From: Bacteroidales bacterium
GTDB lineage: Bacteria > Bacteroidota > Bacteroidia > Bacteroidales > ML635J-15
DNA: 35,230 bases
Assembly: GCA_017645925.1 (NCBI GenBank)
Contig: JAGCNN010000187.1
Span: 1 to 35,230 of the forward strand
Direction: 5' to 3'
Below the pieces are notes generated by a model. The model was given only the letters and a program-made list of their open reading frames with translations. It was not told where the DNA came from and made no database searches. The translations under genes and the position numbers were made by a program. The first letter of the stretch is position 1; each line of letters starts with the position of its first letter. Shown here one piece after another: positions 3,808-7,132 of this stretch.

Positions 3808-3825
3808 GCCGCAAAATTTTGCGGC
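3808..3825. repeat. perfect 18-bp palindrome in the leader of the kinase-RapZ gene
   Basis: GCCGCAAAATTTTGCGGC reads the same on both strands. It starts about 6 bases after the predicted transcription start and 48 bases before the ATG at 3873. As DNA it could bind a dimeric regulator; as RNA it would form a 7-bp stem with an AATT loop near the 5' end. No T tract follows, so it is not a terminator of the receptor gene upstream. Confidence 0.6.
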
Positions 3826-3872
3826 TCAAGAAAACAAAAAAAAGAAGCATAACAATAGAATTATCAACAACC

Positions 3873-5312
3873 ATGACAATTCAAGAATTACTAACAAAAA
3901 GATACACAGAGTTCTACAAGGAAGAACCGACAAAAGTTGAAGCAATAACAAAAGCTGGCTCAAACAGAAGCTATTACAGGTTTTACGATAAAAACGGAGA
4001 AACTGTGCTCGGCGTTTACAGCAACAACATTCCTGAGACAAAGACTTTCCTGTACTACAGCGTAATTTTCAGCAATTTGGAACTGAATACTCCAAAAATT
4101 TACCACGTAAGCGAAGATACCCTCTCCTACTTTATCGAGGATTTTGGAGATGACTTGTTGCTCAAAATCGTTGAAAGCGAATACAAGCAATACGGCAAGT
4201 TTACCGACCATCTAGACGAACTTTACCGCAAAAGCATAAGTTCATTGGTAAAACTGCAAATTGCTGCAGGCAAGGCCATAGACTTCAGCCTCGCCTACTC
4301 CATTTCGGAATTCAACAGCCAAAGCATCCTGTTCGACCTCAACTACTTCAAGTACTATTTCCTGAATCGTCTAGACATTCCTTACGACGAGAAACTCCTT
4401 CAGGATGACTTTGATGCACTTGCAGCGCATCTTGCCGAAAACGGAACCAAAGCCTTTATGTTCCGTGACTTCCAGGCTCGAAATATTCTTGTAAAGGACG
4501 AGCAGGTTTATTTCATTGACTATCAAGGTGGACGCAAGGGCGCAATACAGTACGACATGGCATCGTTGCTATGGCAGGCAAAAGCAAAAATTCCCAACGA
4601 CAAGAAGTTGGAACTGCTAAATTTCTACATTGACGAGGTTGCAAAGAATACAGAAATAGACAAGGCTGATTTTGAACGTGAATTTTGGTTCTACCTATAT
4701 GTACGCATACTTCAAACACTTGGTGCATACGGGAATCGCGGCCTAATTGAAAAGAAACGCCACTTCATCGAGAGCATACCTTTTGCCATTGACAATCTTA
4801 AAGAACTACACGAAACCCATCCGATACTTGGTGAATACAAGGAACTTGACCGTGTAATATCCGAAGTGGTAAAATGCAAACAAAAGTTTGAATATGTAAA
4901 ATACAGCGAGCTTACAATCAACGTAATGAGTTTCGGCTACAAGAACGGACTTCCCAAAGACAAGACAGAAAATGGCGGAGGTTTCATCTTCGACTGCCGA
5001 GGCAACCACAACCCCGGTCGCTACGAAGAGTACAAAAAAATAACTGGTCTCGACCAGCCAGTAATTGACTTCTTCAAGAAACATGGCGACATTGATGTAT
5101 TCATAGAAAACATAAAGGCTGTAATTTCGCCAACCATAGAGAATTACATTAGCCGAGGTTTCACCAGCCTGATGATTTGCTTTGGCTGCACGGGCGGTCA
5201 GCACCGCAGCGTTTACTCAGCCGAAAACATCGCAAAGTACATACACGAAAAGTACGGAATAAAAGTCATATTGAAACACAGGGAATTGGGAATAGAAAGA
5301 GAGATTTGCTAA
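3873..5312 (+). CDS. APH/AmgK-like sugar kinase fused to a RapZ C-terminal domain
   Basis: The 479-residue protein has two parts. Residues 1 to about 330 form an aminoglycoside-phosphotransferase-fold kinase like cell-wall amino-sugar kinases: a nucleotide-binding N-lobe, the catalytic loop FRDFQARNILV near residue 196, and the metal-binding IDYQGG near 216. Residues about 350-479 are a RapZ C-terminal domain: SFGYKNGLP, DCRGNHNPGRYEEY (about 374) and CFGCTGGQHRSVYSAE (about 435). In Escherichia coli that domain senses glucosamine-6-phosphate and binds GlmZ RNA, but the Walker P-loop domain of true RapZ is absent and replaced here by the kinase. Inference: an amino-sugar kinase tied to wall-precursor sensing or recycling. 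No murU-like nucleotidyltransferase lies nearby. A TTG start at 3819 would add an unlikely basic tail; ATG 3873 is chosen. Confidence 0.88.
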   Translation: MTIQELLTKRYTEFYKEEPTKVEAITKAGSNRSYYRFYDKNGETVLGVYSNNIPETKTFLYYSVIFSNLELNTPKIYHVSEDTLSYFIEDFGDDLLLKIVESEYKQYGKFTDHLDELYRKSISSLVKLQIAAGKAIDFSLAYSISEFNSQSILFDLNYFKYYFLNRLDIPYDEKLLQDDFDALAAHLAENGTKAFMFRDFQARNILVKDEQVYFIDYQGGRKGAIQYDMASLLWQAKAKIPNDKKLELLNFYIDEVAKNTEIDKADFEREFWFYLYVRILQTLGAYGNRGLIEKKRHFIESIPFAIDNLKELHETHPILGEYKELDRVISEVVKCKQKFEYVKYSELTINVMSFGYKNGLPKDKTENGGGFIFDCRGNHNPGRYEEYKKITGLDQPVIDFFKKHGDIDVFIENIKAVISPTIENYISRGFTSLMICFGCTGGQHRSVYSAENIAKYIHEKYGIKVILKHRELGIEREIC

Positions 5313-5322
5313 GGTGTTTTTT

Positions 5323-5673
5323 CTATTAGTGTCCACTAAAATGTAGGATAATACACATAATTGTAATGTTGTCAAGCGTTTATGTGACAATACAAAATGG
5401 GGCTTGTCATTTACTTGCTTCGCTGCGTGAGCTAAAGGTACGGAAGCTAGTCGTAACACGCGATACGGAACGGGGAGCGTTGTGAAGACTGCTGTCCGTA
5501 ATCTATTAACGTATTATTAGAGAACAGATTACTCACTTCGTTTCGTGAGAGAGTTCCGGACAAGTGAACTCACAAGCAACGTTCCTTATGCTGTTCGTTC
5601 TACTTTTCGGACCCTTTAGCGCACGCAGCGTAGCAAGTAATGACAGGCTGGGTACTTTAGTGGACACTAATAG
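5323..5673. mobile_element. 351-bp non-coding foldback/MITE-like element
   Basis: The element is bounded by an 18-bp perfect inverted repeat, CTATTAGTGTCCACTAAA (5323-5340) and its reverse complement (5656-5673). Each end also contains the short dyad TTAGTG-NN-CACTAA. A second, inner inverted repeat pairs 5405-5438 with 5611-5644, and smaller stems fill the centre (5498-5504 with 5526-5532; 5532-5536 with 5545-5549; 5493-5498 with 5557-5562). It is flanked on both sides by TTTTTT, which could be a target duplication or simply T-rich terminator DNA. It carries no credible gene or transposase and lies exactly between two convergent genes. A MITE moved by an unseen transposase is the best reading; a structured non-coding RNA or a large bidirectional terminator are alternatives. 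Confidence 0.65.
5405..5644. repeat. inner long inverted repeat of the foldback element
   Basis: The arms are about 34 bases each (5405-5438 and 5611-5644). They share TGTCATT, ACTTGCT, CGCTGCGTG and GCTAAAGG in order, with two mismatches and one single-base gap. Together with the outer 18-bp repeat they make the whole segment fold back on itself. Symmetry continues imperfectly inwards. Confidence 0.75.
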
Positions 5674-5682
5674 TTTTTTTCC

Positions 5683-7086
5683 CTACAACTCCTCTACCTC
5701 AAATATATCGAATCGGCTCTTTTCCTTCCAGTATTTTTCTATAGCAATGCGACGTAATTCGCTCCAATAAACATCAGATTCCAAACCATACTTCTTTATC
5801 AACTCACCTACATCTGAGGCAATTTCCCGCTTCACATCATCCTTAACCCTGAAAAGGAGTTTCCGTCCATTATAACTAACTATAGCAGAAGGCGATACGT
5901 TTCCATCTTTAGAAATTACTATCGCACCGTAACCCAAAGTAGTCCCGGCGCCTATCTGCAAGCCATCGTTAAGACAACTTATCGGTGGTTCGGAACCTGC
6001 ATTCGACACTATGCTTACCTCATCAAGTCCGACATGCAAATACTCCAGTATTCGCAACCCCATCTTTGCACCAATTATTGAATAAATGCCTAAATGCGAA
6101 TGCATTTCTGAGGTTAGCAATACAAGTTTGTACTCCGCATAGCCAAAATTCGCCAAGATTTGTTCGGACAATGGAGCAACATCAGCCGAAAGCATAGAAC
6201 CACTTCGGGGCATCTCTGTAACAATCACGCCCTTTTCTGTTTCTACAGCATTCAAAAACCTCGTAGCTATAACATCAAAATATGCTTCCTGCTTGGGACG
6301 CAAAACCGAAAATGCTTGTCCTCCTGTTGATTCAACAAACAATTCTGGATATAGTATGTAAAATGGAAGCAAATCATCGCAAAACCTTACAGAAGCGAAC
6401 TGCCGACCTTTGTAGAATCTTGCAAATATTTGCGCGTACGGAGTTGCAATTTCTGGTAAAAGAGACAAAAAATCATCGGGATACAATACATTTCCTGCAT
6501 CAAGAACTTTGATTTTCAAGCCAGATGCAACAACCTTTTCAAACGCCGACTTGTCCAACCTGTAGTTGTAGCCACATGGGAAAAGTTTGTCATCAACTCG
6601 CGAAGTCCACACAATATATGTAATATGCATTGCCACTTCGGGGTGCTTTTCAACAAGGTCGGCAAGGTTTGTCAGCGGACCCATAGCCACATATATCACA
6701 GGCTTGCGACTGCCGCATATAGCATTGTACAGAGCATCGGCACGAGCAGCAGGACCTTCACGGAGATTATTCTTCCAAAACTCCATAGCTGCAGAACAAT
6801 CCTTCTTGTACGACTTGGGATTATTGCCATTTCCAAGCAATATGCCCTCATGATGGAATTCTGCCAACAAAGAAGAAAGGCATTTCGCAGAACTTTCGGC
6901 ATCAAGCACACCACCGACTGGCTCCACCGCATTAATATTGAAGTCGCGCGATGACATGAAATATGTAAGCGCCCGAAAATCGTCCATACCGCAGTCGGTA
7001 TCAATAACCACATTATACTTTGCCCGCTGATGCGCCGATGCATCTGGGGTTACAAAAAGTAACAGCAATATGAGACAAATAATCAT
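5683..7086 (-). CDS. secreted nucleoside hydrolase fused to an FmdE-like domain
   Basis: The 467-residue protein begins with a signal peptide (MIICLILLLLFVTPDASA). Residues about 24-300 match inosine-uridine nucleoside hydrolases: the calcium and ribose-binding DTDCGMDD (29-36), VYVAMGPLTNLA-type core (here VIYVAMGPLTNLADL) and the YNYRLDKSAFEKVV segment. Residues about 315-467 resemble FmdE (formylmethanofuran dehydrogenase subunit E-like) domains: EMHSHLGIYSIIGAKMG, a GAGTTLGYGAI turn and a conserved LLFRVKDDVK strand. The hydrolase would split nucleosides into base and ribose in the periplasm or outside; the FmdE part may bind metal, but its role is unknown. A longer frame starts at 7131, but a promoter (7102-7132) overlaps it, so ATG 7086 is preferred. 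The gene is probably monocistronic. Confidence 0.88.
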   Translation of the reverse strand: MIICLILLLLFVTPDASAHQRAKYNVVIDTDCGMDDFRALTYFMSSRDFNINAVEPVGGVLDAESSAKCLSSLLAEFHHEGILLGNGNNPKSYKKDCSAAMEFWKNNLREGPAARADALYNAICGSRKPVIYVAMGPLTNLADLVEKHPEVAMHITYIVWTSRVDDKLFPCGYNYRLDKSAFEKVVASGLKIKVLDAGNVLYPDDFLSLLPEIATPYAQIFARFYKGRQFASVRFCDDLLPFYILYPELFVESTGGQAFSVLRPKQEAYFDVIATRFLNAVETEKGVIVTEMPRSGSMLSADVAPLSEQILANFGYAEYKLVLLTSEMHSHLGIYSIIGAKMGLRILEYLHVGLDEVSIVSNAGSEPPISCLNDGLQIGAGTTLGYGAIVISKDGNVSPSAIVSYNGRKLLFRVKDDVKREIASDVGELIKKYGLESDVYWSELRRIAIEKYWKEKSRFDIFEVEEL

Positions 7087-7101
7087 GCTACAAATTTTGC
7101 G

Positions 7102-7132
7102 TAAAAGTACGAAAGAAGTTTTGAACAGCAAA
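7102..7132 (-). promoter_or_regulatory. promoter of the nucleoside hydrolase gene
   Basis: On the minus strand TTTG (7129-7132) and TACTTTTA (7102-7109) are separated by exactly 19 bases, matching the Bacteroidota -33/-7 pattern except for the last base of the -7 box. Initiation would fall about 10 bases before ATG 7086. Confidence 0.5.

Follow-up and report, generated by a model that had tools for sequence, protein, structure and literature searches.

The window analysed here is a stretch of 35,230 nucleotides of a Bacteroidales draft genome (contig JAGCNN010000187.1), in which a highly symmetrical element lies between two convergent genes. The upstream gene ends at position 5312 and the downstream gene at 5683, and the intergenic position given in the first-pass annotation of this DNA, which was made from the sequence alone, is thereby borne out. 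As examined by Pfam, the upstream gene (3819-5312) encodes a fusion of an APH-type kinase domain and a RapZ C-terminal domain that is conserved in same-genus genomes, and the downstream gene (5683-7131) encodes a nucleoside hydrolase domain joined to an FmdE domain, an unusual combination. The element itself was annotated as gene-free, and we likewise found no gene inside it; the sole open reading frame of at least 80 amino acids touching the element runs antisense, is 80 aa long and overlaps with the upstream gene.

Limits and inner organisation of the element

The outermost inverted repeat (5323-5340 and 5656-5673) spans 18 nt with 100% complementarity, in accordance with the perfect 18-bp terminal inverted repeats (TIRs) originally claimed. 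The true ends were nevertheless placed one base inward, at 5324 and 5672, because the duplication signal in family copies (see below) peaks there at exactly 9 bp. On the basis of the TIRs and the duplication register across dispersed family copies, the whole element is therefore 349 bp long (5324-5672) and bounded by perfect 17-bp TIRs. The left TIR, TATTAGTGTCCACTAAA (5324-5340, + strand, as for all modules below), is of the IS4 type, given that the TIR consensus flanks IS4 transposase genes elsewhere. It is followed by the left AT-rich subterminal segment of the shell (5341-5405), as defined by a module map over the host copies, and the right subterminal segment together with the right TIR, TTTAGTGGACACTAATA, occupies 5645-5672. 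The first-pass annotation further regarded the ends as near-palindromes. The tip TTAGTG-TC-CACTAA was indeed present in the window copy, but most family copies read TTRKTGTCCGCTAAA, so that the near-palindromic tip is a trait of the window copy and not of the family.

According to the same module map, the interior is composed of modules M, A, loop, B and M'. Module M (GTCATT-TACTTGCTTCGCTGCGTGAGCTAAAGGTA; 5406-5440) forms the left arm of the inner inverted repeat; some other copies carry it, and others lack it or have it inverted. The next part is a hairpin unit of the nested core, unit A (5441-5505), which also occurs alone in same-genus genomes; it is followed by a central loop module (5506-5548) that other copies carry in either orientation, and then by hairpin unit B (5549-5611), by inspection a diverged inverted counterpart of A. 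Module M' (5612-5644), recognised from the module map and repeat detection, forms the right arm of the inner inverted repeat and ends in AATGAC. The inner inverted repeat (5411-5445 and 5606-5640), previously described as having about 34 bases per arm with two mismatches and one gap, proved to be real, with 35 nt per arm, 86% complementarity and no gaps. The RNA fold of positions 5310-5690 was very stable (-146.7 kcal/mol, z = -9.7), and none of 100 shuffled sequences folded equally well. Such a fold is to be expected of any foldback sequence, and it probably reflects the palindromic make-up of the element and gives no evidence for RNA function.

Dispersed copies, target duplications and an unoccupied site

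The host draft genome comprises 3.09 Mb in 311 contigs and is 75% complete. About 40 places in it were related to the element at 72-100% identity, which answers the first-pass annotation's call for a search for further copies, and 73 ends belonged to the wider TIR class. The best other copies were 96-98% identical to the window element, some of them over only part of its length, and this high identity suggests a fairly recent spread. From the fetched copies, 27 TIR-paired elements of 154-425 bp were extracted, and their flanks were compared at several offsets and lengths against 2000 shuffles. The duplication signal was strongest at 9 bp with the element starting at TA-TTAGTG; at this register, 13 of the 27 flank pairs matched at 8 or more of the 9 bases, compared with an average of 0.5 and a maximum of 5 in the 2000 shuffles. 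The left 9-mers of 17 chosen copies were 86% A+T versus 58% for the window. For the window copy, the left (TGTTTTTTC, 5315-5323) and right (GTTTTTTTC, 5673-5681) copies of the duplication match at 7 of 9 bases in the register obtained from the 27 copies. A 6-bp TTTTTT target duplication, as had been proposed, was not supported, and the T-rich flanks correspond to a 9-bp AT-rich duplicated target. Note that about half of the copies no longer carry a recognisable duplication, which counts against reading the family as miniature inverted-repeat transposable elements (MITEs).

An empty site, another check named in the first-pass annotation, was found when the joined flanks of nine copies were compared with 26 same-genus genomes. 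Specifically, the joined flanks of the copy at C166:20871-21131 aligned straight through in four same-genus genomes (G008, G023, G022 and G016), and the alignment with these unoccupied sites indicated that the copy had entered the T-tail of an intrinsic terminator. Other relatives had extra DNA at this site, and G007 had a TIR-like end beside it. In relatives, the two genes that flank the window copy lie apart, hence no empty-site comparison was available for this copy.

Ends shared with complete IS4 elements

The TIR consensus, TATTRKTGTCCGCTAAA, was found in at least 114 contig stretches of the bacterial genome collection, mostly from Bacteroidales, and its pattern gave 8 matches in viral contigs. 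Short TIR pairs across Bacteroidales had 9-bp duplications in 10 of 37 cases, whereas 0.7 was expected. At three loci (L162, L168 and L214), an IS4 transposase gene with DUF4372 and DDE_Tnp_1 domains lay immediately internal to the TIR and was correctly oriented, and a decayed remnant of such a gene was found inside the TIR at a fourth (L232). The transposase of L162, from Prevotella sp. P5-50, has an open frame of 427 codons; its score against NCBIfam transpos_IS4_1 was 180.8 bits (cut-off 115), it also passed Pfam DDE_Tnp_1 and DUF4372, and by inspection YKARWAIEALFKQIK in its translation fits the Y-R-E-K signature. Furthermore, complete IS4 elements of 1.3-1.4 kb were obtained, with both TIRs near-identical to the MITE ends and with exact 9-bp duplications. 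Five of these, L273 (1408 bp, TATTGCTGTCCGGTAAA), L276, L277, L278 and L282, came from a search through the order for relatives of the L162 transposase, and a DUF4372 search yielded L140 from the same genus and L142 from the same taxonomic family. The ends of the L142 insertion sequence (IS), CACTAGTGTCCACTAAA, were identical to the window element end at 15 of 17 positions, the best value among the complete IS. An IS family sharing the ends, which the first-pass annotation had suggested looking for, thus exists across Bacteroidales as IS4/DUF4372 elements.

Subgroups of the IS4 family make duplications of about 8-13 bp (PMC2266710, Table 1), and the closest fit is IS4Sa, with 8-10 bp duplications, CA ends and T at position 9 (De Palmenaer 2008, PMC2266710). 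The window element resembles IS4/DUF4372 IS, which in ends and duplication length are nearest to IS4Sa (PMC2266710), in its 17-bp ends, 9-bp duplication, T at position 9 and A at position 2, but it is 349 bp long without a transposase gene, and its first base is often T in place of the CA end of IS4Sa. Porphyromonas gingivalis MITEs (MITE239, MITE464/PgRS, MITE700 and BrickBuilt; PMC4596501) are likewise short, multicopy and intergenic, with TIRs common to a resident IS family; however, their ends match the IS5 family and BrickBuilt makes 4-5 bp duplications, in contrast to the IS4-type ends and 9 bp seen here. RUP of Streptococcus pneumoniae is also small, with IS-like TIRs and a proposed IS transposase acting in trans, and in RUP/BOX/SPRITE clusters different small repeats insert into one another (PMC2229807, PMC10969869), although RUP differs in its IS630-type ends, its TA target, its organism and its sequence.

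Taken together, a 349-bp length, no transposase gene, TIRs, a fixed 9-bp duplication, dispersed copies and an unoccupied site for another copy all point to a MITE, and TIRs common to complete IS4 elements, a 9-bp duplication in both MITEs and IS and a partner with DDE and YREK features assign its ends to IS4. We therefore consider the element very probably (about 0.93) a MITE of the IS4 family, whose ends and 9-bp duplication are nearest to the IS4Sa description. The first-pass suggestion of a MITE or foldback element moved by a transposase elsewhere agrees with the many copies, the IS family with the same ends and the empty site of another copy. Similarity between MITE and IS was, by inspection, apparently confined to the ends, which counts against this reading. 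The main gap is that no DUF4372 or close IS4 transposase was detected in the host assembly (75% complete, 311 contigs). Repeated IS copies often drop out of fragmented draft assemblies, and a MITE needs no partner in its own genome, so that this absence is weak evidence.

From comparison of the sequences, mobilisation in trans by an IS4 transposase has the best support and is the most likely mechanism. An IS4-family DDE transposase (427-429 aa, with N-terminal DUF4372 and the Y-R-E-K signature) would be supplied in trans, bind the 17-bp ends and cut the element out, and the excised element would be joined to 9-bp staggered AT-rich targets, often T-tracts beside genes. The interior would be passive cargo, namely a second palindromic repeat family enclosed by IS4-type ends, and exchange between the paired arms may then have shuffled the modules and flipped the central loop. 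Widespread gene-free repeats of rumen and gut Bacteroidales are in this way tied to a definite transposase family (IS4 with DUF4372), and such repeats could be annotated as MITEs instead of possible RNAs or terminators. The element is ordinary in kind, a well-supported MITE with an identified IS family; its mosaic interior is unusual. No report of IS4/DUF4372 MITEs in Bacteroidales was found in the literature searched, which does not by itself prove novelty.

Another candidate partner, IS110, was rejected: at L049 an IS110-type gene follows a TIR-like end at a distance of 270 bp, yet the same IS110 end occurs at C164 without the MITE. IS110 elements usually make no 9-bp duplication. At this locus (L049:3560-4704, G000 contig C76) the IS110-type transposase gene is 270 bp inside the MITE end, and the sequence that begins with TGTCATCC is found again, identical over 208 bp, at C164 in a different context; this looks like the insertion of an IS110 element into a MITE or next to one. 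At L110:262-1430 (G006 contig C76), a large open frame that, judged by eye, looks like a Y1-type transposase follows a TIR-like end at a distance of about 60 bp.

A separable core and the rival explanations

The same-genus genomes G015, G022, G016 and G017 have no exact match to TTAGTGTCCGCTAAA, yet the interior of the window element (5441-5611) occurs in many copies in them, and in G022 some of these lie inside variant IS4-type TIRs and others outside such ends. Unit A, of about 65 bp, occurs alone behind GTCATYN in same-genus genomes, where A and B also form inverted doublets ending in GGAATGAC; in G015, doublets lie within an apparently different MITE shell, whose ends read GGTAACTATATACAAGTTGAC (L327). 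The reverse was also seen, in that G007, G031 and genomes across Bacteroidales hold shells that share the ends of the window element but differ in their interiors. The host copies vary in their modules, which may be lacking, inverted or duplicated; L051 and L028 carry the right half twice, in inverted order, and the loop occurs in both orientations. Since the core occurs outside these ends and the shells occur with other interiors, shell and core are separable. Judged from these comparisons, the window element is a mosaic in which a widespread IS4 MITE shell encloses a core that occurs in this genus, and the inner inverted repeat is the boundary region of this core, a second separable repeat family. 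A mosaic of this type offers a manageable example of a non-autonomous repeat that is carried within another one. It is a real possibility, though one we rate at somewhat under an even chance, that the core (A, B and the M module) is a mobile palindromic element itself, occurring alone, as inverted doublets or within two or more unrelated MITE shells, of which one is IS4-type. If so, different non-autonomous parasites would spread each other.

The element might alternatively be a portable bidirectional transcription terminator that is retained for its position between convergent genes, a possibility raised by the first-pass annotation. The convergent flanking genes and the T-runs on both sides would suit this explanation, but a scan of 5200-5800 found no terminator-like site, the T-runs are accounted for as target duplication, and the examined L019 copy adjoins an already complete terminator that is present in relatives too. 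Given also that MITEs usually accumulate between genes anyway, we regard a terminator role as quite improbable. A mobile or fixed structured RNA, that is, a small RNA or a regulatory element with a fold maintained by selection, would agree with the very stable fold and with the A hairpin, in which a few compensatory changes over 33 distinct units (alignment columns 24-52 and 35-40) accompany a well-conserved loop. These changes, seen among 33 related units, are at most weakly compatible with a hairpin function, in either DNA or RNA. On the other hand, no Rfam family was matched at the gathering cut-off, with only sub-threshold chance matches, the copies are dispersed and not fixed at one orthologous locus, and modules are lost, inverted and duplicated between copies, changes that a fixed RNA would not tolerate. 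Dispersal is explained by the transposon ends and 9-bp duplications, and the RNA alternative put forward in the first-pass annotation is very improbable.

Dispersal could also be due to the inner core, which would be REP/REPIN-like and depend on a Y1 (RAYT) transposase, with the IS4-type ends being incidental. Like REP/REPIN elements, the core hairpin units exist as singlets and inverted doublets in same-genus genomes, and Y1 transposases are present in the genus; the core units are, however, about 65 bp long, and none of 50 loci with Y1 transposase genes had a unit nearby. A Y1/RAYT driver of the core was not supported, given that blast gave no match of any unit at these 50 loci and a looser second mapping, which did detect units in other loci, agreed. 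In addition, the target duplication abuts the IS4-type TIRs and not the core, and the same ends occur on shells with other interiors, making dispersal by the core very improbable.

A very short element of about 57 bp in L084 (G000 contig C124, about 162-218) lacks the core and consists of little beyond the pair of IS4-type ends with a single GTCAT between them. The second apparent MITE shell with ends GGTAACTATATACAAGTTGAC and the same hairpin core was seen in G015 at L327:359-637 and also in L323 and L326.
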